DNA of 64,000 nt, taken from NCBI GenBank assembly GCA_963402885.1, contig OY727096.1:2976001-3040000 (forward strand). The letters run 5' to 3'. Positions 18,858 through 55,405 of the stretch are shown piece by piece. The notes beneath the pieces were generated by a model. It was not told where the DNA came from. It ran no database searches and saw nothing but the letters and a program-made list of their open reading frames with translations. Origin of the DNA: Antedon bifida (taxonomy: Eukaryota > Echinodermata > Crinoidea > Comatulida > Antedonidae). The translations under genes were made by a program, and so were the position numbers. Every line of letters starts with the position of its first letter. Position 1 is the stretch's first letter.

Positions 18858-20573
18858 ATGTCCAAGATGTTTATTTATAGTTCAAACGGAAGCAATAGTT
18901 CTTCTCAGTCATCCACTCCGATGGACTCTAATACCGGACCGATTCCCATAGACATCGGTACTGGTGTCGGTACTCTGGAAGGCTTGCAGTTTTACTTCGC
19001 TTATGGAATTGAAGCCATTTTAGAAGTATTCATCGTCGTCGGCAACTTAATAGTCATAGCTTCCATCGTCTGCCAGAAATCCATGCGCAGAACCAAATCA
19101 AATCGCTACATCCTGAGCCTAGCCGTTAGTGATCTTCTGTGCGGATTAGCTATCCCTATAGTTGGGATTGCAACCAGTCAGTTCTCAGATTCTTTCATCG
19201 TGTCGGTTAAGGTTTGTGTAACACCTTTTTGTGTGATGGTGACCTGTTTTTGTTCGTCCATATTCAACCTAACGTGTTTGTCTTTCGATCGCTACTTATC
19301 CATTACGCAGCCATTGAAGTACCACTTGCTGACGCCGTCCAGAAGTAACGTCATCATAACTTTGGCGTGGATGTGCGCCGTTATCATCGGAATTACTCCG
19401 TTATATTGGCATGAAGAACCAGGTTTGATTGGAAGCTTTGTTTGTAAATGGGACAAAGTCATTAAAGACATGTACATCATAGGATTTGCATTCGTTGGAC
19501 TTATAATACCTACCATAACTATTCTGCTACTTTACAGACAAATATATAAGGTTGCTGTCAGTCATTCACGACAGCGTGATAAACGACAGCAGCTGTTTGA
19601 AGAGATTGTCTTAAAGCATCGAAGTACAACCAATGGCACTTCTAACAAACCGAACACGATTTACCATGCAGCAACTAAAGAAGGCCAGTCTACAACCAAT
19701 GGCACTTCTAACAAACCGAACACGATTCACCATGCATCAACTAAAGAAGGCCAGTCTACAACCAATGGCACTTCTAACAAACCGAACACGATTTGCCATG
19801 CAGCAACTAAAGAAGGCCAGTCTACAACCAATGGCACTTCTAACAAACCGAACACGATTTACCATGCAGCAACTAAAGAAGGCCAGTCTACAACCAATGG
19901 CACTTCTAACAAACCGAACACGATTTGCCATGCAGCAACTAAAGAAGGCCAGTCTACAACCAACGGCACTTCTAACAAACCTAACACGATTTGTCATGCA
20001 GCAACTAAAGAAGGCCAGTCTACAACCAATGTTTCATCAGCTTTGTATACAACTCAAAGTTCAAGTTGTTTCCAGATATTAAGAAATAAGTTATTTGTGA
20101 ATAAGACAACAGAAAATGAATCACACGCAGATGTGTTTAATAACCCTGATAGTGTAAGAAGAACGAAAACCTCTAGCAGCCCTAGTATTACTCCTCACTG
20201 CTCTGTATTTGGCAGAAGAAACTGTTCCAAGTTGTCGAGGTCCAGAAGAAGCCGTCGAGAAAAAAGAACAACGTTTACCATCTTATTAGTGGTACTCGTC
20301 TTTCTAATATGTTGGTTGCCGTTTCTTGTTGTTATTCTTCTTGAAATCGTATGTACTGAAGAATGTAATATACCTTCGTCTGTGCACGTGTGGACTGGTT
20401 TATTATGCTACGCCAACAGTGGTGCCAATCCCGTTATATACACATTCAGGACCGATGAGTTTCGAAAAACTTTCAAAGGTTTGTTATTACGCATTAGCTG
20501 CTGTGAAGGGTCATCACAAAATGATAGAACAAGTAGACGTCGCGCCGCCGGTGGTGCATCAATGAAATCGTGA
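18858..20573 (+). CDS. Class A (rhodopsin-type) orphan GPCR 1, intronless, with repeat-expanded third loop
   Basis: A single exon of 571 residues from ATG 18858. The short N-terminus carries NGS and NSS glycosylation sites. Key residues: GN in TM1 (N63), SLAVSD in TM2 (D92), C120 paired with C196, DRY 144-146, CWLP 485-488, NPVIY 524-528, and a Cys pair in helix 8 (RISCCEG) for palmitoylation. The W.GLLCYANS..NPVIY pattern in TM7 and PLKY after DRY resemble amine and adenosine receptors. However, position 3.32 is Met127 rather than Asp, so a classical biogenic amine is unlikely. The third intracellular loop (about residues 235-460) holds six 22-residue repeats. GPCR 2 at 22383 is its closest relative in the window and has the same orientation. 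Ligand and coupling are unknown. Confidence 0.9.
   Translation: MSKMFIYSSNGSNSSSQSSTPMDSNTGPIPIDIGTGVGTLEGLQFYFAYGIEAILEVFIVVGNLIVIASIVCQKSMRRTKSNRYILSLAVSDLLCGLAIPIVGIATSQFSDSFIVSVKVCVTPFCVMVTCFCSSIFNLTCLSFDRYLSITQPLKYHLLTPSRSNVIITLAWMCAVIIGITPLYWHEEPGLIGSFVCKWDKVIKDMYIIGFAFVGLIIPTITILLLYRQIYKVAVSHSRQRDKRQQLFEEIVLKHRSTTNGTSNKPNTIYHAATKEGQSTTNGTSNKPNTIHHASTKEGQSTTNGTSNKPNTICHAATKEGQSTTNGTSNKPNTIYHAATKEGQSTTNGTSNKPNTICHAATKEGQSTTNGTSNKPNTICHAATKEGQSTTNVSSALYTTQSSSCFQILRNKLFVNKTTENESHADVFNNPDSVRRTKTSSSPSITPHCSVFGRRNCSKLSRSRRSRREKRTTFTILLVVLVFLICWLPFLVVILLEIVCTEECNIPSSVHVWTGLLCYANSGANPVIYTFRTDEFRKTFKGLLLRISCCEGSSQNDRTSRRRAAGGASMKS
19623..20030 (+). repeat. 66-bp coding minisatellite in GPCR 1
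   Basis: Six full 66-bp units (19623-20018) plus a partial seventh encode repeats starting STTNGTSNKPNTI, then Y/C/H, H, A, A/S and TKEGQ. Units are almost identical at the DNA level, which points to recent expansion. The array begins at residue 256. The other frames also stay open because 66 is a multiple of three. Confidence 0.96.
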
Positions 20574-22382: not shown

Positions 22383-24098
22383 ATGGCTACAACGGTGATA
22401 ACCGCGACTTCGGACGATATGAACGACACCACAACATCAATGGGAGAGGTTCCGGTAATACCAATGAAGCCTGCCATTCCTGTCGACCTGGGCGTTGGTC
22501 TTGGGACGCTAGAAGGTGTAGATTTACACATTGCCGTTGGAATTGAAGCAGTTCTGGAAATATTTATTGTGTTTGGAAACATTCTTGTGATTTTTTCAAT
22601 TATTGGGTACCAGTCATTGCGTCGAACGAAAACAAACCGTTATCTCCTAAGTCTTGCTATTAGCGATCTTCTTGTTGGATTAGTTATACCGATCGGACTT
22701 GTGTCGAAATACTTTCCAGATTTCTTCTTCCGGTCAGTTCAGATTTGTGTTATGCCATTTTGTCTTATGATAACGCTCTGCTGTGCGTCAACATTTAACC
22801 TGATGGCGCTTTCGTTTGATCGTTACGTGGCCATTACAAAGCCGCTGAAATATCCTCTACTGATGACATCATCAAGGAGTAACGCCATTATCGCATGTGC
22901 GTGGTCTGGCGCCATTTTAGTCGGGACTACGCCGCTGTATTGGCACGAAGAGGCGTACTACTGGAGCGACACAGGTGAACTGTTCTCGTGCACGTGGGAT
23001 ACAATCATCACGGATTTGTACATCATAGGTTTTGCGAATATCGGACTGCTTTTACCGATAGTGGTAATTCTCATCCTGTACAGCAAGATATTCAAAATTG
23101 CTGTTAATCATTCTCGTATGCGGGATCAAAGACAACAAATGTTCGATGAGGCTATTGGAAAGCACAGACCAAGTAAGCCTACAATTGATTTGCAACCAAA
23201 GACAAAATATTCAATTGAAAACAATGATAGTTGTCCGCCGGTTGACAGCGCGCGTAAGTCGATTAGCAACGAAAAGGAAGATTCGCCTGAAAAGAGGTTT
23301 GAAAGAAAATCAAGTAACTTAAGTAACCAGACATATTTTAATGAAACATATACAGGTAGTTCGACAACAGTGGGTGATGAGTCGAGTCAAAAAGGTGATC
23401 GCGGATCGAGTAGAAAAAGTAGTACTGGATCACGTCGGAAAGGTAGTAAAATCAAACGAAGCCTCAGCCTCAATGAGGTTAAACCTTCTTCTCAGGCGGA
23501 GAACACGAATTCGGATATCGAAAGAAAAAGGAAAATGATGGCGCCAAAGAAAAGTTTATCAGCTAATAGACTTTCCCGCCTTTTACGAAGGAATAGTTCG
23601 TCGATGACAAGAGAAAAAAGAACATCTGTGACGATCTCCATTGTCGTTCTGGCGTTCGTCGTCTGCTGGTTACCGTTTATGATCATTATGCTCCTGGAGT
23701 GTTTGTGTCCAAACCAATGTGGTGTGACGCCATCTATACGCGTGTGGTTCGGGATTCTAGGCTACGCGAATAGTGGAGTCAATCCTGTCATTTATTCTTT
23801 GAGAACTGAAGACTTTAGAATAGCGATTAAACACATGTTTAGAAAATTTGGATGTTGCAAAGAAAAGACTAAGGAAATTCCCCTTCAACAACAAATGGTA
23901 AATTCTAGCAAACGTAAAATCTCGTCAATTAAAGAAACCCCAAATATAACAGACAAGGAAATATCTTCTTCGCATTTACCGTCGCCTCGTACGACGGCTA
24001 CAGCTTCTGAAACTATAGCAGAGGATTGCTCTAAGTTGGTTGATTCGAGAGGCCCAGCCTCTTCCAAAGAGCCTCTACCCATATTTTGTATTTGTTAA
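22383..24098 (+). CDS. Class A (rhodopsin-type) orphan GPCR 2, intronless
   Basis: A single exon, 571 residues from ATG 22383, related to GPCR 1 across all seven helices. Shared blocks include GTLEG before TM1, IEA.LEIFIV.GN, RRTK.NRY.LSLA.SDLL.GL and PLYWHEE. Landmarks: N66, D95, C122, DRY 146-148, CWLP 428-431, NPVIY 467-471, and a Cys pair in helix 8 (FGCCKEK). Position 3.32 is Met129, so the amine-binding Asp is absent here too. The third loop (about residues 245-405) is long, basic and Ser-rich but unique sequence, where GPCR 1 has a repeat array. The tail is about 95 residues. This is probably an ancient tandem duplicate of GPCR 1. Ligand unknown. Confidence 0.9.
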   Translation: MATTVITATSDDMNDTTTSMGEVPVIPMKPAIPVDLGVGLGTLEGVDLHIAVGIEAVLEIFIVFGNILVIFSIIGYQSLRRTKTNRYLLSLAISDLLVGLVIPIGLVSKYFPDFFFRSVQICVMPFCLMITLCCASTFNLMALSFDRYVAITKPLKYPLLMTSSRSNAIIACAWSGAILVGTTPLYWHEEAYYWSDTGELFSCTWDTIITDLYIIGFANIGLLLPIVVILILYSKIFKIAVNHSRMRDQRQQMFDEAIGKHRPSKPTIDLQPKTKYSIENNDSCPPVDSARKSISNEKEDSPEKRFERKSSNLSNQTYFNETYTGSSTTVGDESSQKGDRGSSRKSSTGSRRKGSKIKRSLSLNEVKPSSQAENTNSDIERKRKMMAPKKSLSANRLSRLLRRNSSSMTREKRTSVTISIVVLAFVVCWLPFMIIMLLECLCPNQCGVTPSIRVWFGILGYANSGVNPVIYSLRTEDFRIAIKHMFRKFGCCKEKTKEIPLQQQMVNSSKRKISSIKETPNITDKEISSSHLPSPRTTATASETIAEDCSKLVDSRGPASSKEPLPIFCIC

Positions 24099-25879: not shown

Positions 25880-28800
25880 TTACGATATATCTTCTTCAAA
25901 AGCTACGATTGAAATTCTCTGATTGGGCACACGTGGCAAGACAGGACTCCCTGATGGTGAGCTCTTTGGTGAGTTAAACGGACTCGAGTCTCGCATCAAA
26001 TCGTTCTTAGGCCTATGGTTAATTTTAGGCCCTGTTTTTAGATTTACACGAGGGCCGTTTGTCCGTGAACTAAGAATTGGACTGCGGCGTACAGCGTATT
26101 TTGACGGCGGTAACAAACTTTCTACGTGGCGGTTTACCACATTGATCTTGGCAACTTTTCGTTCAGCGATGAACGTCGCTTTACATCTGACGCTAACGTC
26201 AGCGATATGCTCACCGTGTTCAGTTGGCCTAAAGGTGGCGCTGTATGTGCTATCGTGATTGTCTCGAAGTTTGAAACTTAGGTGTTGACCAGAGGGCGCT
26301 TTTATTTTCACAGTGGTTATGTCATCAAGTTCAATTGTGTGAGGCGTACCGGCACAAGTACAATTTGGCGTCTCTATGATAATGTAAGACAATTCGCCCT
26401 TGTAGCCTACTTGCGGATGTAAAATAAATGGATGAACCCGAATGGAAAATTTCTTCTGTAATTCGTGACCGAAAATCGTCACCCCTAGTTTATGCTCTCC
26501 GATATAGGATGGGTTGTATAGAACTTCGAACGACCCATTAGCACTGTTCCTCAACTTGTGTCTGATCGCTTCATTTGAAAACAATTCACATGATAACGTT
26601 GTCGAAATGGCATCTTTAGTTAAACCGTTGTATTTGTTACCGAACTTATCTCGCGGTTCAATAGTCACCACGCAGTCGGTATGTACGAGAGCGGATGGAA
26701 TTGAGACTACCGTTTTAGGTGGGTGAACACAACTCGCAACGATAATTCCACTTTGTATGACGTCATCGACCACGTCTATTATGACCGGTTTATTAAAACG
26801 TAACGTTCCCATTGTTTGAGGACCTATTGTTACATTGGTTGATGATAATTCCTCTAGTCTAGCTTTCATTAGTGGTTGGGATCGAGCGATCTGTACGTCA
26901 CTGCCATACTCCATTGAGTTGGTGGTAAATGTGGAGCCAGCGCACATACGAGACAACGTTTTGGTGACATCAGCACTCTGTTTGCTAAGCAACGTCGACC
27001 AGTCCGACCTCAATTTGTTCAACTGAGATAAACTATTTTGTTCTTGTTGGTTGATTGTTTGTCGACATTCATCAAAATAATCTCTGACCTACAAAATAAG
27101 AATACACAAATTGTGAGCAATGTGGCGCAGTGAATACGAATAGCTTTTACAACTTTAATTGTATTTACCAAAACAAGCTAACCGTAATTAAGATACATCT
27201 CCACATGCGCGTGATCAACTTGATAAATGGTATGCGTTAACTTTGTGTCAGTTATTCAGTATCAATATTGTCTGTCCTTAAGACTCTGTCTACACTATCA
27301 AACTTTATGTGACAAAAAATGTGATGTGTCCATATATGGACATGATGATGTCATGATATCACTACCAAATTTGGACATATCACTACCATATTTGGGCATA
27401 TCACTACCATATTTCTATCTACCTGGATCACTACCATATTTGGGCACATCACATTTTTTTTGTCAAACTAGTTTGATAGTGTAGACAGAGTTTAAAGTTA
27501 TTCGTTAGTTTTAATTTCCACCTTCCCCACGTCGAGTTTTGTCCTACTCTCCCTAAACCGTTTTTACCAATTTAATCATTTAATTTCCCCAGAGTGCATA
27601 CACAATTATACTGTAAAGTACCGTACCTGTTTTTCTGTATCATTCATTGAATTTTCTAATTCTTTCATTTCTAACTGTATATTTTCTGACTGTTTCTGCA
27701 ACGTATCTTCCTTCTCTTTCACCGCTTGTAAAAGTCGTTGAAGTTCTTCTTTATACCTGGTGACCAAGTCAGTTAGTGACGTCACGTCGTGGTTATGCTC
27801 ACTGTGCTCGTTATGTAGACATTTCCTACATATCGGTTTGTTACATCCGGGCGTCTGGCAGAAAAATTCTACAGCTTCTTTAAGGTGATCAACGCATCTT
27901 TCCCTAGATTGAGCAACTTTCCTCCTCATCGACGAGTTGAGTCTGGATAAATGGCAAACCTCGTGCGTAACCAAAGGGTGTTCGTTGTGCGCGCGTATGC
28001 AGCGCATACATATAAACGTACCGCACTCTACACACCATGCTTCGGCGGGAGCGTTTCGGTTACACCGTCTGCAACTAAGCTTCCGACGCTTTTTGACACC
28101 TTGATCTTTTTTGTATTTTTCAAGTTGATTCATGATGAAATAGTTTTCCTGGAAACCTTTGACTCCATTTGAAGGAACATAAGCCTATAATACACAAAGG
28201 AAATGTTAGTATGTGTGGGTTGGGTCACGTGCAGAGTTATTATTACCACAATAAACAGGATCCAAACATGAACACTTATGCGCTACGCAAAACCATAGTT
28301 ATAGTTACCTTATGCCTGTTTCCCACTAGAGACGCAACACAAGGACGTAACGCAACGTAAGTGAGTTGACCAATCACAAGCGATGGATTATTTGAACTGT
28401 TGCTTGTCATTGGTCAACACGATTGCGTTGCGTTTACATCCATGCGTTGCATCCTAGTGGGAACCAAGCTTTAAAAGGGAATCGAATTGCTGGGCGTGTA
28501 ATGTTTGGTCCGTGTCGTCCAACAGTGAACATTTGATGTACTTTTGTTTTAAATCGTGCATGTTCACGCACGCACGCGTGTAATTAATGATACAACAATT
28601 TATGCGCTCGTGCGCGTCAAATTCGTACGTCTTTGTCACTGTACTAACTACTACTAAATTATGTTGTATATACTCTACCATATTAATGGTCTTTGGCGCT
28701 CATTGATCAATCATGATTGTTTTGATAGATCTTCCCGGATATTATACCGTAAACACAATTACTCTACATTTTAATGCTCGCAAATTTGCTCAAATTAACC

Positions 28801-37000: not shown

Positions 37001-40000
37001 AAAAATTAATTTGGGACTGTTTGGAGAGTTTCCGGTTTTCAAAGAATCCGTTATTGGGAGAGTTGACTGTACAATAAATCTAGTATTATTCAAATCCAAG
37101 GTTTTTATATATTCTCTATTTTTTTTAAGGATTTGACCTCTGACCCTGTAATAGCAAGCCTGGTAGCCAAGCACCCAGTTGACTTCATAGTGTCTAGCGA
37201 AGCCTTTCTTACTATGCTTGATAACCATTCACCACACTATGAACAGCAATGGGAGATTCCATTTACTGTGCAAAGTCAAAGTAAGTAGGCCTACTTAGTG
37301 GTACTGACACATTCTTGCTACCTAATACCAGGATGGTTCTCATGACTGTATACTGCAGTAAAATGTGCTGCCATGTGTTGACATGTGTGTCCATGAGTTC
37401 CTTCTGGCTTGATATATCTGCCACTACTTAGTGCAGAGGAATGCTTTGTGACTTGTAATTGTAATTGGCTTCTATTCAATTTCAACATTTTTAAAGCTCT
37501 GTCTACACTATCAAATTTTATGTGACAAAAAAATGTGCCCATATATGGACATGATGATGTCATATCACTACCATATTTGGGCATATCACTACCATATTTG
37601 TGAACATCACTATATTTTGTGCTGTTCCTGATGGAATGGTACTGCAGATTTTATGTAGACAAGGGTTAGATTAGATAAATTATATACACAAATTAATGCA
37701 AGTAGTAATGTTAAGATCATTTAAAACAGTTTAAACATGTTATCTTTATTGTGCTCTTCAGTGGCGAATTCAACTTCTAAGAAGAAAGTTATTGTCATAA
37801 ATACTCCATTGATGAAGAAATTGTATTTGCCAAAAGTTCAAAATACCATGTATCACATGGAAGCTTTAAAACATTTTTTCATTGGGAAAAATACAAAAGA
37901 AAGTAAACCGGAAACAGATGAAAGAAAAATGGAAACAGCAATGAAATCATTACATACTTCACCAACAACAGATGAAACATTTGATTTTGGTAATGAGAAT
38001 GACATCAACAAACTGGAGACATTTACTTGTTTAAAAGGAAATGAAGATAAATTACTCAAAGGCAGTGCTAAATATAAAACATCACAGAAACTATTAAAAA
38101 ATAAACATGAAAAAGAGAATGATTTAGCAGAAAAGACATCAACCAGTTGTCATGAAAGTTTAGATTCGATCCATGATTACCCAGATGGTAGTTTAAGCAT
38201 TCTAGATCATGCTTCAGAAGTGAAACTAACAGAAAGAACTAATGAAGATCATCTGGTGGCTTCAAGTTTAATATCTTCTCAAACTGTTGAATGTGCTAAA
38301 GATCAATTTGAAATTAGTAAAATATCTTTGGAACTTGGGGAACTTAAAGATCAAAACAAAGAAGGTAAATTCCTGCCAGAGGGCAGTGTTGTCAAATTTC
38401 AAGTTCCAAAAAAGAGCTCTGACACATTGGTCATCAGAGATAAACCATTTATTAGTGATAGCAGTGATACTGAACATGAACTGGTGATAGCTCTTGACTC
38501 AAGTAGTAATGATGAATCAAATAAAAACAAGTTCATGAGTCCATCACAACCAAGCAACATCATTGAGAAAGATTCTACCAAAAGTATTGTGACAAGAAGT
38601 AGAAAAAGGAAAGAGGTTGAAGAAAATGAAGGTAAAGAATCTCATATTAATACAAACCAGAGTCAAATTGTGATGACTCAAGCATTGACCAATACACTGG
38701 ATGGGTCTACACTGTTAAGAAATAAACGACTTAAAGGAGTTTGTGAGAAGCTTCAAAATGGACAACAGAAGAAAAACTCCACAGTGTCAGCAGACAATGA
38801 TGCAGTTAATTCTAATCGATTCAGTGATGAATCAACAGAACAGACACCTCTGTCACCAGATAAAGAGGACAGAGGTGTGTCTTTAGTGTTGCCTAAGAGT
38901 CCCCTAAAGAGGACTTCTTCATCTAATAATTTGACAACGGACAACTCCAATTTGAAAGTTTCAATAGAATCCCCCAATTATGCTGTTACAGAAAATGCAC
39001 ATGTTACAAAACATCAAGAAGGTATGAAACAATTTTCTGAGAACATTGAATCTGATGGTAAAGATAAATCAAATACCAAATCACCATCAATTACTAATGA
39101 GGCAGAAGACATGTATAGTTTATGGAATTTTGGTAAATTCAAAATTCTTGTAAAATCTCAAGTTGATGGCAGATCAACAACTGATAAAACACAACAGGTC
39201 AGTCTTTCTTTATCCTCATTTTATTGTGTGTAAAGTCTACACTATCAAACAAAAAAAATGTGATGTGACCATATATATGGACATGATGATGTCATATATC
39301 ACTACCATATTTGGGCATATCCCCACCATATTTGGGCTAGTCTGTGTAGACAGAGTTTAATAAAGTTGTGTTGTGTTTTACAATTTGTTTAAACACAAGT
39401 TTATGTGTTATTATTTGTCTTTCGGTTGCCAGGAAGTTCCATTACATATTCAACCCAAATTGGAATACCAGGCTATATTTGGCCATGAGATGTTGACAGT
39501 TAGTGAGGTATGCTGTGGATGGTTGAAGCTGTTTCTCACACCAGGAGCTCAACTAGCCAGAGGTAAATTAGTATAATAGTCTGCTCAAACTTGTAAATGG
39601 TGGAAATAACCTGCGACTGGCAGCCTACTGGTCTGAATTGCACACAGGTGTGGATGACACCACAACTTTCTACTCCCCTAAGGGTCCCTTCAAGTTGTGT
39701 GCTGCCACCAAACGGCACCCGTTTGTCTGTCCATAACGACAGGGGCTGCATTGACCAGTACACCGGGTAACCACCTACTTTTCTGAAAGATGTACTGGGT
39801 TCTTTAAAGTGCACACAAGCCAGATGTGTACACTGGACCTCTAGTTTTAAGTCCTTATCCGGGAAGTCTTGTTCTACCACCAGATCAATGGTCGAGGAGT
39901 TTCTTGAACCTTGATTGTATAGGTATGGTTTACGTTGCCCCTGCCTTAACCCCTCAGCCACTCGACTTGAGCACTGAATCTATAACTTGAACTAAGCTAT

Positions 40001-42182: not shown

Positions 42183-42330
42183 AGTGATTTGTAATAGCCG
42201 AAGCTCACTGATCAACAAAGATACTATAGCGCCACGAAGTGGCGCAAGATATGGAAGTCCTATCTCTTATACACTGCGCATGAGTGAAATTCCATGGGCA
42301 GCCATTCCGGCAAGCAAGTTACGCGATCAC
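42183..42330. repeat. Left arm of a 2.3-kb-spaced inverted repeat
   Basis: Contains CTGATCAACAAAGAT, a hairpin GCGCCACGAAGTGGCGC, and GGGCAGCCATTCCGGCAAGC. All three recur in reverse complement order at 44400-44515. It overlaps the promoter-like region at 42.27-42.43 kb. Confidence 0.8.
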
Positions 42331-44399: not shown

Positions 44400-44520
44400 G
44401 CCTTCTGGGTAATCCGCTTGCCGGAATGGCTGCCCATGCAATTATCATTTTTCGAGCGTCAGTTCCATATCTTGCGCCACTACGTGGCGCTATACGATCT
44501 TTGCTGATCAATACACAAAA
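44400..44520. repeat. Right arm of the 2.3-kb-spaced inverted repeat
   Basis: GCTTGCCGGAATGGCTGCCC, then CCATATCTTGCGCCACTACG with hairpin GCGCCACTACGTGGCGC, then ATCTTTGCTGATCA. Reverse complement of 42183-42330, with a different middle. Confidence 0.8.
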
Positions 44521-44735: not shown

Positions 44736-44959
44736 GGTAAGAAACTAATTTCAATTTTATTTTTAAAACCAACAGTTAGGGTACTACAATAGGCCCCAGT
44801 AATAGTACTACTGGTGCTGTATTATTGAGCTAGAGTAGGATGATGGTGACTCCTCATTAGCTACGTTTTAACCTACATTGCAAGTAGGTAGGTAGGTAAG
44901 AATTATCATGGTTGATGGTATTTTGAAACATTTTTTATTTGAATTACAGTTTATACAAG

Positions 44960-47900
44960 ATGCGCAACTCCGAATCAGATCATTCATCTGGAAATCATAG
45001 GGAAAACCATTTGAAACATCATCATGGTAGATCACGTTCTAGAGATTCTAGAACTGTAAAACAGCAACCTACTGGGCGAGTGCGATCCGTCTCTCGATGC
45101 CATCCCAGTGCTACAAAAACGGGTGAACAGCCAACAGCAATTTGCTTTACTGGTGTTCAAATATATTGCTCTCCAAATTCTCATGCGCAAATTATAAAAT
45201 TATTTGACAACAATTCCATAAAATATACCTCATTCAGTCTTCTAAACAGCAAAACTGAAAAACCATTTTCTGATGTTAATGTGCTGGTTAAATCGAGAGA
45301 AGAAGCTAATCGGTGCATTCGACTGGTCGAAACAAATTTCACAGTTAATTCAAGTTCTATAATGGGTATAAATGAAGAATTAGGATCAAGTGATCTCACT
45401 GCTAAACATGATCGCATACATAGTCATACCAGGCGTAGAGCAACAAATAGTCCTCAATGTCCCAAGCAACCACTAATGGATTTTGCTAAAGATGATCGCA
45501 TGCCTAGTCATACTAGGCATAGAGCAATGAATATTGCTCAATGTCCCAAGGAACCACTAATGCATTTTGCTAAAGATGATCGCATGCAAAGTCGTACCAG
45601 GCATAGAGGAACGAATATTCCTCTATGTCCCAAGGAACCAATGAAGTTTGAAGATGCAAAATGCCTTGAAATTACTAATCTTCCACCAAAAACTCAAGAG
45701 GGAGACTTAGCTAAATTACTGACAAACCCAGAGATATGCCAAGAAAAATTATGTAAGATAAAAATAAGAAACGATCGAGCAACGCTCTTGTACAGAAATC
45801 GTGTTTCAGCAATTAATGCCTTAAGAAGACTTTATGGAGTGCATTACAAGGGGAAGATGTTAGATCTTAGACTACTAGAGCATGATGTAGAAATCGAAGA
45901 TGCGATATTCAAGGATCTGAAACGTAATCTGCAAAAGGATATTGAAGAAAAAATAACACCCATCATGTATAAATGGAATCGCGAAATCAACCAACTGGAA
46001 GATGATGTTATGAAGATAAACAGTAGTCGTAAACACAATTTCATTCCAATTGAAGAAGCCGAAAGAATTGAAGTTGAAAGACAAGACTTTAAGTTCAAAC
46101 AGGATCAATTAAAATTGTTTAGAAGTCAGTTGATGATTTTTACTGAATATTTGGAACATGAGACAGAAGAAGCAGTCAACATAGAGACTGTTGGGAAGAT
46201 CAGAAATGAACTATGGCGTGAAATCAGAAAAGCAGACAACCCGTTGCCTATATATGCATTCCGGAGTTCTATAATATACACAGTGTTTAATAACGAGAAT
46301 AATGCATGCGTTATTTTAGGAGAAACTGGGTCTGGCAAGAGTACACAAATTGCACAATACTTAGCAGATGCAAATTTTCTGCTTTCCAGTAATGTTGAGA
46401 CTAAGATTGCTTGTACACAACCTCGAAAGGTTGCTGCTATTTCTCTTGCAAAAAGAGTTGCAGAGGAGTATGGCTGTGAGGTTGGTGAGCAAATTGGTTA
46501 TATGGTTGGCTCTTTACGAAAAACAAGTTTGAACACGGTTGTAACATTCATGACCGATAGAGTTCTTCTTAACAGTCTTTTACAGGATCCGTTGCTTAAA
46601 AGCTATTCCTGTGTTGTCATAGATGAAGCTCATGAACGATCTATTGACACAGATATTTTGATTGCCCTTCTCAAGAAAGTTTCTGCTGAAAGACCAGAGT
46701 TGAAAATTGTTATAACATCTGCAACAATTGATGAAAAGGTTTTTTGTAGATATTTCAATAACTGTCCATACATGAAGATTCCTGGCAGAGTGTTTCCTGT
46801 AGAAACAATCTTCAGTGATATCGACTTTAATGTTAAAACCAATTATGTGAAAGAGGCTGTGGACATGGCACAAATGATACACGAGACAAAGAAACTTGGT
46901 GACATCTTGGTATTTTTGACATCTGCAAATGAAATAGAACGAGCTTGTGGAGATCTTGCTAAACGGCTTGGAATCGTAGGTGATAATGGAAATGCTCAAA
47001 TACTACCTCTCCATGGTAAATTACAACCACAAGATCAGTTGGCCATATTTAGTGCACCTCCTCCTGGTAAAAGGAAAATAGTATTTGCTACGAATATAGC
47101 AGAAACGTCAGTCACTATAAACGGCGTAAGGTATGTAATTGATACAGGAATGGTCAAAGAGCGTAAATATGATGCAAAAAAGAATATGAGTTTGTTGGAA
47201 GTGACAACAATTAGCCAAGCATCTGCTGAGCAAAGAAAAGGACGAGCAGGTAGAACATCAACTGGTGAATGCTTCAGACTATATTCAGAACAGGATTACG
47301 ATGAGATGGAAGCAAACAACAAACCAGAAATTTTAAGAGTGCACCTTGGAATGGCTGTTCTACAACTTCTTCAGCTTGGTATCCAAGATTTGAAACACTT
47401 TGAATTTGTTCAGCCCCCTCAAGATGGTGCGTTAGGAGAAGCTTTGAAAATGCTAGAGTTTCTAGGAGCTGTTAGTAATTATTCTCAAGAACTTACTGAT
47501 CTTGGAAAAAAAATGTCATACCTAACATTAGAACCACGCTTAGCAAAATTGGTTCTAAAATCAATTGAAAATGACATGGCTGAAGAAGGTATAATTGTGG
47601 CTGGTCTTCTTGCAGCTGGTGGCAACATCTTCTATAGATCTGGCTCAGATGTGGATAAACGCAAATCCGATGAATCAAAATTAGATTTCAGCAATGTACA
47701 CGGTGATGTATTTACTATGTTAGATGTCTATGATGAATGGAAACAGCAGCCAGAGAAAACAAGATCTAAATGGTGTGTCAAAAAGAGCATTAATGGAAAA
47801 ACTATGAAAGTTGTGGCTGAAATCATCAAAGATATAAAGAAATCTCTAAAGACAAACGACCTCTTTTCTAGCAGAGATGAAGTTACTGTCGGTTGGAAAA

Positions 47901-50900
47901 GTGAAAATGGAAGTAGGTGTTTACAAAGGTTAATTTTTTCTGTGTATGCCCAGAATCTGTGCATCTACAATGGACATCCAAAAGCAGGTTACACAAATGT
48001 TTTCCAGATGAAGACCGGTCTTTTGCATCCATCATCATCGTTGAAGTCATTAGATGTGTTTCCAAAGTGGATTGTGTACACTGAATTCAATAGAACAACC
48101 CAGGATTTTTTTCAGCATCTAACACCTGTTGAAAGTGACTGGATTTTTGAATATCATCCACAGTTAGCGAGCTCTATTGATTTCACGTCATTAAATGATA
48201 ATCAAGTGCGTGAAGTGAGGGTTCCTAGAATTGGGCCAACACTTATGGGACGCATTATACAAAAAGGTGGACAAGGATTGAGAAGCATTGAAGAACAAGT
48301 GTGCGCAATGAAACAAGATGATGCAACATTTTGTGTTATTGAATGTTGTAATGAAACTGGCACAATAGGGTTATTTGTGTCAAGGAATGTAGCAGTTAAG
48401 TCAAAGACTTTAGTTCAACAAATTGTTGATAGAGAACGTGCTTCCCTAGAAAAGCAACAACTTGAGGTAGCTATTGGTCATTCATCATCTGGTGTTCGTC
48501 AGGTTATTGAAAAGGGGGCTGAACCAAAATTCATTTTGATGCCAGATGATTTTCGAACTTTAGAAATAAGTGATGACAGTGGAAATACATTTCCAGTTTT
48601 TGAAAATTGGCTAGAAGTACACCGGCTAGAAGAACACATACATGACAAATTGAAGTTCTCTTCCCATAGCAAACAGGCTACCCGGGGAATTTGGGGGAAG
48701 GTTACATTTATTTCACCAAGAATAGCCAAATTGGTAAAACAGTGTTTCCCAGAGGAAAAAACTATGAAATGTAAGCCTGTCTGTCAAGGAATTCAAGAAC
48801 AGAATGGATTGAAACAGGAGCTGGTAGCCACTTGGAAAACGGGTGTATCCAAAAATTTTGCCTTTGTAAATTGTAAAGATGTTGATGGTGCTGCCACAAT
48901 TAGGCAGACCTTGGATGGGACGATGATTAAAGGTTCAGTAGTAGCTTGTCAATTTAAAAATGATGATGCAACAGCTTTGTACATATCAAGATTAAATGAA
49001 AGAATAACTGAAGAAGACATAGGAGATTCAATCAATTCTTTTAATTTAGGAGCTACATTCAATAGAATTTCAGTTCCAAGACGTCCTCCATGTATCGAAA
49101 AAACAGATGACCAATTTCGTGAAGATATGAAAGAGTTGCTTGTTAATTTTACTGACAAAGCAAAAATTGATGTAAGGTTTCCTCCGAAAAGGACTCCCAA
49201 GACTCCAAGAGGTGAATTTGATACTTTAAGAAGTAAACATGTAACTGCCTTTGTAATGTTAACTGGCGTACCAACTGACACAGTCAACACAATCGTAGCT
49301 CGAGCCCCATCTTTGCCAAATAATGTCGGACATCAGTTGACAATTAAACGACTAGTGAAATGTAGATTGTTTTGTCCAGGATATGTGTACAAAGTTATCA
49401 AAGATGACCTGATGTCCCTGAAACAGACAGGAGAGAAAGATTTCAAAGATGCACGTATTCGAATTAATGATAATAAAAGAGACAAGTCAAATGATGTTGT
49501 GATTCATTTAGAATTCAAAAATCCTGAGAGCATGATAAAATTGCAAACAGAGTTTGTAAAACTGATTGATGGCAATAAGATACTTATCAATGGTAGTCGA
49601 AAAGTGATCAACGAAATCAGTGTTGACTATTGGCGCCAGTTTTTGAATCAGGCCGGGCAGAGTACAAACACGCGGGCATTTTATGACAGAAGAGAACGTA
49701 CTGTTAGAGTATATGGAACTGAAGGTGACGTACAAAACATGATTGAAAGAATAAATGAATTCATTTCTGAAGCAGAAAGAAACCATTGTGAAATTAGCCT
49801 TGGTGACTTTACAAAGGCTAAAGGCAGAGCTCTTCAAAAGTTACGCAAATGGTTTGGTCCTGATTTGATCGAATTAAAAAGAAAAAGTAGTGCAGATTCT
49901 ATTTCATACATATTAAAATCTAGAATGATTGTAGTTCTTGGTAGCGATACTGCACAACACAAAATCCGAGACTTGATTAAAGAATGCCTACAACAAGAAG
50001 GAATTAGGCTTGATCAAGAAGATGTTATACAAGATGATGCATGCAGAGTTTGTTTTTCAGATGTAGAAAAAGACTCTCATCGATTGGAAGGATGTGGTCA
50101 TAATTACTGTAGAGAATGCTTGGTAAATTTGCTAATGAATTGTATAGAGACAAGAAAATTCCCTGCCATCTGCGCAAATGAGGATTGCGACCAGTCATTG
50201 TTTATGTGTGATATAAATTTACTAACCAGGGATAAAGAAACCAAAGATAAGCTCTATGCTGCCACTCTGGACACCTTCATTGCACAAAAGTGCAATAATG
50301 AATACAAGTACTGTATTACACCTAACTGTACAATGGTTTATCGTTCATCAACCGGCGAAGGACAGTTGTTCATCTGCCCTCTGTGCAATCAACAGTTTTG
50401 TACCAAGTGTAGAGTTGATCATTCTGGCATGTCTTGTGGAGAGTACACTGCTAACAAAGAAACGGGTGGAGTGATGGATTGGGCCAAGAAAAACCAAAAA
50501 GATGTTAAAATTTGTGTAAGTTTTATCATATGAATTGCAAAATTTATATAGCATGTGATTGATTGTGTACTTAGTTAATTGAACAAAATTAATTATGTAA
50601 AATGCAATTTAAATGTGTTTTAAGTAGTGTGGCGATGGATGAAACTTACATCTGCGTATCACTGTCTGTATGGAGTTACCGTATTTGAATAAACACCACA
50701 TTTGGGGTTTTTTTTAGAGGGTGTGATGGGGAGTTTATTCGAGATAAGCGTTTATTCAAGGGAGGTGTTTATTTGTTGGGTGTACTACGTGGTAGCACAG
50801 TCAAATAAATTCCCCCAAGATGTGGCAAAATGCAACACAATTAATATCAAGAAGTGATCAAAAACAGTAAGAAATGTACTGTAATGTACTTTACCATTGA

Positions 50901-51343
50901 ATTAATGCTTAATTCAATGGTAAATTATAAATCGTGGAAGAAATGTGTCGTAATTCAATATTTATATGCTTGAGGTGGGGCGTTTATTGGAGAAAAAATA
51001 AAAGCACTGGGATTTTGAGGTGGCATTTATCCAAACGATGTTCTATGGAGAATTTTATTTGAGGAGCGTTTATCCGAAGCGGGCATTTTTTCAAAAAGTG
51101 GGCCTTTATTCAAATAAAATATGCCAGTACACTATATTACATTTCTATTGCTAATCATTATGATTTATATTAAATTATCAGAAATGTGGGGCTATGATCG
51201 AGAAGACTGGCGGATGCCGGAACATGCGCTGTACCAGTTGTCATAAGTCAATGTGCTGGATTTGTGGCAAAGTCTTTGATACAGATAAAGAATGTTATGA
51301 CCATCTTCAAACCGCCCATGATGGAATTTTTGATGTCATGTAG
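44960..51343 (+). CDS. DEAH-box RNA helicase fused to a C-terminal RBR (RING1-IBR-RING2) ubiquitin ligase
   Basis: Two coding exons, 44960-50515 and 51182-51343, join in frame to 1905 residues. The start is the first ATG after the acceptor at 44949. The N-terminal 330 residues hold an RRM-like fold (about 60-130), three 28-residue repeats and a second RRM-like region (about 235-310). The helicase core has Walker A GETGSGKST (454), DEAH (555-558), SAT (587-589), TNIAETSVTI and QRKGRAGR (758-765), followed by HA2-like and OB-like regions. A KH-like GRIIQKGGQG lies near 1095, with another RRM-like stretch near 1270-1350. RING1 starts at C1695 (CRVCF, CGHNYCREC), then IBR (YCITPNCTMVY, CPLCNQQFCTKC). 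Exon 2 gives RING2, KCGAMIEKTGGCRNMRC, with the expected catalytic Cys1864. The closest known architecture is plant DEAH11/DEAH12. It probably couples RNA unwinding to ubiquitin transfer, but substrates are unknown. All key residues are intact. Confidence 0.93.
45395..45646 (+). repeat. 84-bp coding tandem repeat in the helicase N-terminus
   Basis: Three 84-bp (28-residue) units with ATCGCAT at 45411, 45495 and 45579. They encode the pattern AKDDRM.SHTRHRA.NI.QCP followed by KEPLM.F. The region is basic and Cys/His-containing but has no known fold. The units have diverged, so the expansion is older than that in GPCR 1. Confidence 0.85.
50686..51120. repeat. Degenerate GTTTATTC-type repeats in the helicase intron
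   Basis: The motif family G(G/C)NGTTTATTC(A/G)AG recurs about nine times at irregular spacing (for example AAGCGTTTATTCAAGGGAGG, GGGGCGTTTATTGGAG, GAGCGTTTATCCGAAGC). It fills most of the intron separating the RING2 exon. Confidence 0.6.
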
Positions 51344-52622: not shown

Positions 52623-55405
52623 TATCGGGTTTTTAAAATTCAATTCTTATGCAATAATATTGCTATATATGATCGTATATTGCGTTACCATCATCTTATA
52701 GTACAATAAAAACCAGTTTTGTCGAAAAATAAAAGGGTCCGTTTTTTCGAAAAATGGCCAAATTATTGGGTTTTTAAAATTCAATTATTATGCAATAATA
52801 GTACTATATATGATCGTATATTGCGTTACCATTATCGTATAGTGCAATAAAAACCAGTTTTGTCGAAATATATCAAGTTTTTAAAATTCAATTATTATGC
52901 GATAAAACTGCTCTATATGATCATATATTGCTTTATCATCATCTTAAAGTACCATAGACACCAGTTTTGTCTAAAAATAAAAAGGTCGAAAAATGGCCAT
53001 TTTTGGAAAAAATCCCTAATTATAGTACAGGGATTTTTTCCAAAAATGGCCAAAATATCAAGTTTTTAAAATTCAATTATTAGGCGATAAAACTGCTCTA
53101 TATGATCATATATTGCTTTATCATCATCTTAAAGTACCATAGACACCAGTTTTGTCGAAAAATAAAAGGGTCGAAAAATGGCAATTTTTTGAAAAAATCC
53201 CTTACTATAGTACAGGGATTATTTCCAAAAATGGCCTAAATATCAAGTTTTTAAAATTCAATTATTAGGCGATAAAACTGCTCTATATGATCATATATTG
53301 CTTTATCATCATCTTAAAGTACCATAGACACCAGTTTTGTCTAAAAATAAAAAGGTCGAAAAATGGCCATTTTTGGAAAAAATCCCTTACTATAGTACAG
53401 GGATTTTTTCCAAAAATGGCCAAAATATCAAGTTTTTAAAATTCAATTATTAGGCGATAAAACTGCTCTATATGATCATATATTGCTTTATCATCATCTT
53501 AAAGTACCATAGACACCAGTTTTGTCGAAAAATAAAAGGGTCGAAAAATGGCAATTTTTTGAAAAAATCCCTGTACTATAGTACAGGGATTTTTTCCAAA
53601 AATGGCCAAAATATCAAGTTTTTAAAATTAAATTATTATGCGATAAAACTGCTCTATATGATCATATATTGCTTTATCATCATCTCAAAGTACCATAGAC
53701 ACCAGTTTTGTCGAAAAATGGCCATTTTTTGAAAAAATCCCTTACTATAGTACAGGGATTTTTTTCCAAAAATTGCCAAAATATCAAGTTTTTAAAATTC
53801 AATTATTATGCAATAAAACTGCTCTATATGATCATATATTGCTTTATCATTATCTTAAAGTACCATAGACACCAGTTTTGTCGAAAAATGGCCATTTTTG
53901 GAAAAAATCCCTTACTATATAGTACAGGGATTTTTTCCAAAAATGGCCAAAATATCAAGTTTTTAAAATTCAATTATTAGGCGATAAAACTGCTCTATAT
54001 GATCATATATTGCTTTATCATCATCTTAAAGTACCATAGACACCAATTTTGTCGAAAAATAAAAAGGTCGAAAAATGGCCATTTTTGGAAAAAATCCCTT
54101 ACTATAGTACAGGGATTTATTCCAAAAATGGCCAAAATATCAAGTTTTTAAAATTCAATTATTAGGCGATAAAACTGCTCTATATGGTCATATATTGCTT
54201 TATCATCATCTTAAAGTACCATAGACACCAGTTTTGTCGAAAAATAAAAGGGTCGAAAAATGGCCATTTTTTGAAAAAATCCCTTACTATAGTACAGGGA
54301 TTTTTTCCAAAAATTGCCAAAATATCAAGTTTTTAAAATTTAATTATTATGCAATAAAACTGCTCTATATGATCATATATTGCTTTATCATCATCTTAAA
54401 GTACCATAGACACCAGTTTTGTCGAAAAATAAAAAGGTCGAAAAATGGCCATTTTTGGAAAAAATCCCTTACTATAGTACACGGATTTATTCTAAAAATG
54501 GCCAAAATATCAAGTTTTTAAAATTCAATTATTAGGCGATAAAACTGCTCTATATGGTCATATATTGCTTTATCATCATCTTAAAGTACCATAGACACCA
54601 GTTTTGTCGAAAAATAAAAGGGTCGAAAAATGGCAATTTTTTGAAAAAATCCCTTACTATAGTACAGGGATTTTTTCCAAAAATGGCCAAAATATCAAGT
54701 TTTTAAATTCAATTATTAGGCGATAAAACTGCTCTATATGATCATATATTGCTTTATCATCATCTTAAAGTACCATAGACACCAGTTTTGTCGAAAAATA
54801 TAAAGGTCGAAAAATGGCCATTTTTTTGAAAAAATCCCTTACTATAGTACAGGGAATTTTTCCAAAAATTGCCAAAATATCAAGTTTTTAAAATTAAATT
54901 ATTATGCGATAAAACTGCTCTATATGATCATATATTGCTTTATCATCATCTTAAAGTACCATAGACACCAGTTTTGTCGAAAAATATAAAGGTCGAAAAA
55001 TGGCCATTTTTTGAAAAAATCCCTTACTATATATAGTACAGGGATTTTTTCCAAAAATTGCCAAAATATCAAGTTTTTAAAATTTAATTATTATGCAATA
55101 AAACTGCTCTATATGATCATATATTGCTTTATCATCATCTTAAAGTACCATAGACACCAGTTTTGTCGAAAAATAAAAAGGTCGAAAAATGGCCATTTTT
55201 GGAAAAAATCCCTGTACTATAATACAGGGATTTTTTCCAAAAATGGCCAAATTATCGGGTTTTTAAAATTCAATTATTATGCAATAATATTGCTGTATAT
55301 GATCATATATTGCTTTATCATCATCTTGTAGTACAATAGAAACCAGTTTTGTCGAAAAATAAAAGGGTCGAAAATTGGCTATTTTTCAAAAAAAAATCCC
55401 TGTAT
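52623..55405. repeat. 185-bp palindromic satellite array (about 16 monomers)
   Basis: Monomer starts (T-ATCAAG or T-ATCGGG mark) at 52623, 52765, 52873, 53058, 53243, 53428, 53614, 53784, 53955, 54140, 54325, 54510, 54695, 54880, 55069 and 55255; the usual step is 185 bp. Each monomer contains an inverted repeat with arms of about 20 bp (GGAAAAAATCCCT and its complement around TACTATAGTA). Two monomers lack a 15-bp segment. Edge monomers at both ends share a subtype distinct from the core. Frames reading MIIYCFIIILKYHR across it are incidental. Confidence 0.96.

Follow-up and report, generated by a model that had tools for sequence, protein, structure and literature searches.

Among RBR ubiquitin ligases, the Helicase (Plant I) subfamily includes Arabidopsis DEAH11 and DEAH12, the former also giving its name to Pfam models, and a paper from 2006 is said to link, in its title, ubiquitination with RNA metabolism. 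According to passages of one account, RBR enzymes act by transthiolation via the RING2 cysteine (PMC3305615), and passages of two others place the Helicase (Plant I) subfamily in both animals and plants (PMC3087547, PMC2904391). A helicase-RBR protein in an animal is not new; it is an ancient type already described in both groups. In Venus clams the ATP-dependent RNA helicase gene DEAH12 is used as a single-copy nuclear marker (PMC8765752), and the relevant passages of that paper describe it as a helicase and make no mention of an RBR module. The name DEAH12 also turns up in a fungal transcriptome paper. A search of the open-licence literature, partly through the best 10-20 titles of longer lists, found no functional study of an animal helicase-RBR member.

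The window, that is, the whole stretch of 64,000 nucleotides analysed here from the feather star Antedon bifida, holds a gene of this type, hereafter gene A. The initial annotation had proposed one protein of 1905 residues with a DEAH helicase and an RBR module. Joining 44960-50515 to 51182-51343 yields 1905 residues without an internal stop, the first part lying within an open frame of 1868 codons (44927-50533) and the stop codon at 51341-51343. The following features were assigned.

44960..50515, plus strand: exon 1, residues 1-1852 (open frame, Pfam, alignment with paralogue B), containing the RRM, helical hairpin, DEAH helicase, HA2, OB, second RRM, KH, RING1, IBR and the first RING2 Cys
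50516..51181, plus strand: intron, GTAAGT...AG, 666 bases
51182..51343, plus strand: exon 2, RING2 with the catalytic Cys1864, and stop codon
45400..45651, plus strand: 84-nt (28-residue) unit in three in-frame tandem copies (repeat search)
45662..45877, plus strand: predicted N-terminal RRM, residues ~235-306 (AlphaFold2 and Foldseek)
residues ~310-426: predicted helical hairpin after the N-terminal RRM (AlphaFold2 model)
46235..47269, plus strand: RecA1-RecA2 helicase core, residues ~426-770 (Pfam, motifs, PDB match)
47441..48163, plus strand: HA2 and OB-fold regions, residues 828-1068 (Pfam HA2_N, OB_NTP_bind)
48824..49039, plus strand: second RRM (RRM_1 over cut-off, RRM_DEAH11 just below)
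49838..49993, plus strand: KH_DEAH11 domain, PF24471, residues 1627-1678 (Pfam)
50042..50188, plus strand: RING1 with full ligand pattern, residues 1695-1743 (regular expression, PDB matches RBCK1 and ARIH1)
50267..50437, plus strand: IBR domain, PF01485, residues 1770-1826 (Pfam over cut-off)

On the evidence of the sequence, gene A is an intact animal gene, and its one large protein is predicted to combine RNA helicase and ubiquitin ligase; the length of the open frame and the E-values are the grounds for regarding it as beyond chance. With the open frames joined, the Pfam domains, the motifs and Cys1864 all fall within the single protein that had been proposed.

In the region 44960-50530, seven of the 16 Pfam families listed exceeded their curated cut-offs. 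Four belong to the helicase part (Helicase_C 53.4 bits, OB_NTP_bind 36.3, DEAD 35.1 and HA2_N 23.2) and three lie elsewhere (IBR 32.9, RRM_1 32.1 and KH_DEAH11 29.0). The core carries GETGSGKST at residue 454, DEAH at 555, SAT at 587, TNIAETS at 711 and QRKGRAGR at 758, and motifs I, Ia, II (DEAH), III, V and VI are intact. The helicase core that the initial annotation had called complete is found whole, and HA2 and OB follow it in a protein that also bears the RBR.

Of the RRM-like regions that had been noticed, the second was recovered by RRM_1 over cut-off, and the N-terminal one is supported by predicted structure, no Pfam family having passed its cut-off there. No RRM family was listed by Pfam for the gene A N-terminus even at E<=1, and in paralogue B, described below, RRM_1 reached 15.4 bits there, below the cut-off of 20.7. 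An AlphaFold2 model of residues 51-430 had a mean pLDDT of 56.6, but of the final 20 ten-residue blocks 18 reached 73-87. When this model was compared with the PDB by Foldseek, 1036 matches were obtained at E<=10 and four at E<=0.001, among the latter the Nab3 RRM (2xnr, TMt 0.85). The N-terminal RRM of gene A is therefore a predicted domain, seen by structure prediction alone. Opposite the 84-nt repeats the alignment shows mainly a gap in paralogue B.

Between OB and RING1, PF24471 passed its cut-off in both A and B. Against a cut-off of 27, this KH_DEAH11 domain of gene A scored 29.0 bits when the whole protein was scanned and 36.1 bits when a sub-stretch was, in agreement with the KH-like motif of the initial annotation. 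RRM_DEAH11 gave 22.9-26.1 bits (cut-off 27), and RBD_DEAH11, KH_DEAH11_1st and KH_DEAH11_2nd gave 15.5-17.5 bits, likewise below cut-off. The resemblance to DEAH11/DEAH12 recognized earlier is borne out by the passing KH_DEAH11, whereas the scores below cut-off of the remaining DEAH11 models count against it. A genome search with KH_DEAH11, in which all six candidates were scored, gave two places over cut-off, namely A and B. A third match at C1:31909410 stayed below cut-off (19.4 bits) in a 388-residue frame in which no helicase or RING motif was seen by eye, and it was rejected. An AlphaFold2 model of residues 1071-1852, built from a two-sequence alignment, was of low confidence (pLDDT 31.7). 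Very probably, gene A encodes an animal RBR ubiquitin ligase of the Helicase (DEAH11/DEAH12-like; Plant I) subfamily, for which an RNP-directed mechanism is proposed.

RING1, IBR and RING2 follow one another with their zinc ligands. A stretch of 121 residues across the joined junction scored 46.4 bits with IBR, in two stretches, and 33.6 bits with IBR_1 (cut-off 27), the best stretch of the latter lying in RING2. Cys1864, within TGGC, occupies the position of the catalytic cysteine. The full RING1-IBR-RING2 module with its GGC cysteine, as originally described, was hence confirmed by the RING1 pattern, by both IBR families and by Cys1864. The gene A IBR misses the strict IBR pattern, having by eye one residue fewer before its His. 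The first zinc knuckle of RING2 is C-x-C in both A and B and misses the strict C-x2-C pattern; this deviation is absent from the initial annotation and might weaken zinc binding. A micro-exon or shifted splice site restoring C-x2-C seems unlikely, since no alternative donor or acceptor fitting the frame was seen by eye beside the junction and B has the same junction. In the PDB the RBR matched RBCK1, ARIH1 and ARIH2, the top row of that search, a designed repeat protein, being set aside because no stretch of it passed on its own; a separate comparison gave matches to ARIH2, RBCK1 and HOIP.

The genome (315.6 Mb, 27 contigs) holds 12 IBR places, all 31 first-look candidates having been scored. 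Two of the 12, gene A and paralogue B on the same contig, lie in open frames of more than 1800 codons. A separate RBR-like open frame of 462 residues on this contig (L010 4267-5655, the IBR match at C9:2242346) shows no helicase motifs by eye. The searches covered this genome, PDB sequences, profile libraries and viral contigs; in the viral contigs 36 stretches matched a pattern and none was confirmed.

Further copies of the gene are located as follows.

C9:30449622-30455483, minus strand: paralogue B, 27 Mb from gene A on the same contig
C9:30449171 downward, minus strand (L011): RING2 exon of paralogue B, with a few bases deleted at the catalytic loop
C8:18742165 (L014 241-393, 1015-2112 and 2102-3625): fragment of a B-like copy, three stops inside the match

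The genome thus contains at least two giant-exon copies and a broken fragment, a new detail; the copy numbers are lower bounds because 25 of the 70 candidates were scored in the paralogue search. Paralogue B has the same domain order and splice site as gene A, and its exon-1 part runs for 1954 residues from the first ATG without a stop. Identity between the two proteins is 79% across residues 224-1855 and 55% across residues 12-158. Pairwise dN/dS, which cannot tell which copy was constrained more, is 0.272 over 1773 codon pairs of exon 1, the other codons having no partner. The ratio is 0.042 in OB, 0.135-0.153 in RecA1, RecA2 and HA2, 0.204 in IBR and 0.331 in RING1, and it is highest in the second RRM (0.447) and the N-terminus (0.477). 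Selection between the copies has been purifying, and the low ratios indicate that both enzymatic halves, motor and RBR, are constrained. By this measure, conservation between A and B is strong in the motor and in OB and moderate in the RBR.

In B, the small deletion within the RING2 exon takes out the catalytic cysteine and causes a frameshift; read in the former frame, the rest of the exon is still similar to A. Compared with A, dN/dS in this exon is 0.07 before the deletion (10 codons) and 0.295 past it (old frame, 38 codons). Since the old frame past the deletion still gives this value, the loss looks recent; it is probably recent relative to the duplication, or else a polymorphism or an assembly error. 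Both this deletion and the C-x-C knuckle shared by the two copies are new details. A branch test of B against the C8 fragment counted three synonymous and two non-synonymous changes for B and two and ten for C8 (222 codons counted, 12 gapped dropped, 2 ambiguous sites). The result leans towards constraint on B and is not significant (p=0.12).

This leads to the question of what the second copy does. A and B might be a long-kept pair in which B, recently ligase-dead, acts as an RNA helicase with its motor and RNA-binding parts constrained and as a regulator or decoy of A on the RNAs that both bind, which we hold to be a rather unlikely arrangement. An intact copy beside a cysteine-less copy in one genome would constitute a natural separation-of-function pair. 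Alternatively, the protein could act in this lineage through its helicase and RNA-binding parts while the RBR decays, its ligase weak or lost. The frameshifting deletion in B, the C-x-C of both copies and the weaker constraint on the RBR than on the motor speak for such decay. Yet gene A has its RING1 and RING2 ligands and Cys1864, dN/dS in RING1 and IBR (0.20-0.33) is well below 1, and the loss in B looks recent by the ratio past its deletion, so that decay of the RBR appears improbable beside a functional helicase-RBR ligase encoded by gene A.

The 1852 codons in one exon had been taken as a hint of past intron loss or retroposition. The giant exon may have arisen from a spliced mRNA that was retroposed long before the A-B split. 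Elsewhere in the genome DEAH helicase matches come in short stretches, an example being the three at C9:23341175-23344394, and this contrast speaks for such an origin. Against it, an acceptor-like AG is seen by eye just 5' of the start codon in both copies, and the RING2 intron stands at the same site in both. Because they keep this intron, neither A nor B is a processed retrogene. Because they share exon and intron, the giant exon predates the divergence of the two copies (dS 0.484). The later duplication that gave the C8 fragment was one of DNA. Across 702 alignment columns the fragment and B share 94.6% identity; the N-terminal end gives 88.8% (418 columns), and a further 171 columns, all of them upstream of the B start codon, give 85.4%. 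As it includes this upstream non-coding DNA, it is, by its alignment, an internally deleted, DNA-based copy of the B lineage. It is directly followed by a tandem array in which a 45-bp unit recurs about 34 times. Retroposition thus falls away for either copy and has little chance as the older source of the giant exon; an older intron loss may have taken place.

Support for the RING2 junction comes from the same comparison. Exon 1 of B ends at the same codon as that of A with the same GTAAGT donor, and its second exon opens with KCGA after AG, as in gene A; the introns measure 666 bases in A and 450 in B. By blastn (E<=1e-3) the similarity of the two loci covers the coding parts, stops a few bases inside the intron and resumes just 5' of the RING2 exon, with a conserved block at about 51168-51307 of the window; neither the interior of the intron nor the sequence upstream of the gene gave a match at that threshold. 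Conservation of donor, acceptor and exon, with the intron interior diverged, supports the junction in gene A as real. An assembly or annotation chimera, in which a helicase gene merely neighbours an RBR exon of other origin and the two are not in one transcript, would fit a junction known from genomic sequence alone, yet its probability is close to negligible, as RING1 and IBR share the open exon of the helicase and the entire layout, with the giant exon and both splice sites that join it to the RING2 exon, recurs in paralogue B.

Eight other open reading frames of at least 150 residues were listed in the window and seven were scanned with Pfam, five of which matched rhodopsin-type or secretin-type receptor, B-box or filamin families, matches that point to an animal. 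Two rhodopsin-type receptor frames (18858-20573 and 22383-24098), both of 571 residues, lie close together on the same strand. At 25880-28133 on the minus strand, frames with a filamin repeat and with B-boxes lie close to one another, perhaps as parts of one TRIM-like gene. The 498-residue frame at 37737-39233 had no Pfam match up to E 10. Just upstream of gene A, inverted arms of 48 nt (42209-42256 and 44463-44510) are 92% complementary and 2.2 kb apart; they may be the ends of a mobile element. Downstream, a 185-bp tandem repeat occupies 52870-53500 and runs at least as far as the search extended.

The most likely role of gene A would be that of an RBR ligase directed to RNPs, so that the suggestion of the initial annotation is a fair one. 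Together with the OB/HA2 platform, the RRM and KH modules would hold RNA or a ribonucleoprotein, and the DEAH motor would spend NTP, translocate along the RNA and remodel it. RING1 would bind a ubiquitin-loaded E2, the ubiquitin would move to Cys1864 in RING2, and proteins on the bound RNP would become ubiquitinated. In this scheme the domain anatomy and the selection are shown by the sequences, while RNA binding, the motor and ligase activities, their coupling and any substrate are all predicted. Coupling an RNA motor with ubiquitin ligation could allow the tagging of proteins that sit on selected RNAs.

Three known systems can be set beside gene A. DHX8/Prp22, the best PDB match of the helicase core (E 2.7e-139), and other DHX helicases have the helicase core, HA2 and OB in common with it, but to our knowledge they possess neither an RBR nor a DEAH11-type KH region. 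ARIH1, ARIH2, RBCK1 (HOIL-1) and HOIP share RING1-IBR-RING2 and the catalytic cysteine motif, and are not known to carry a helicase; in the aligned ARIH2 and RBCK1 the RING2 knuckle is C-x2-C, whereas it is C-x-C in gene A. The Helicase (Plant I)/DEAH11 subfamily combines a DEAH helicase core and an RBR in one long protein, as gene A does, and of its Pfam models the DEAH11-type KH passes in gene A, the other DEAH11 domains giving traces below cut-off. Compared with DEAH11/DEAH12, gene A is an animal gene, its protein has 1905 residues, and it carries the three-fold 28-residue repeat and the C-x-C knuckle, features that may be common to plants too.
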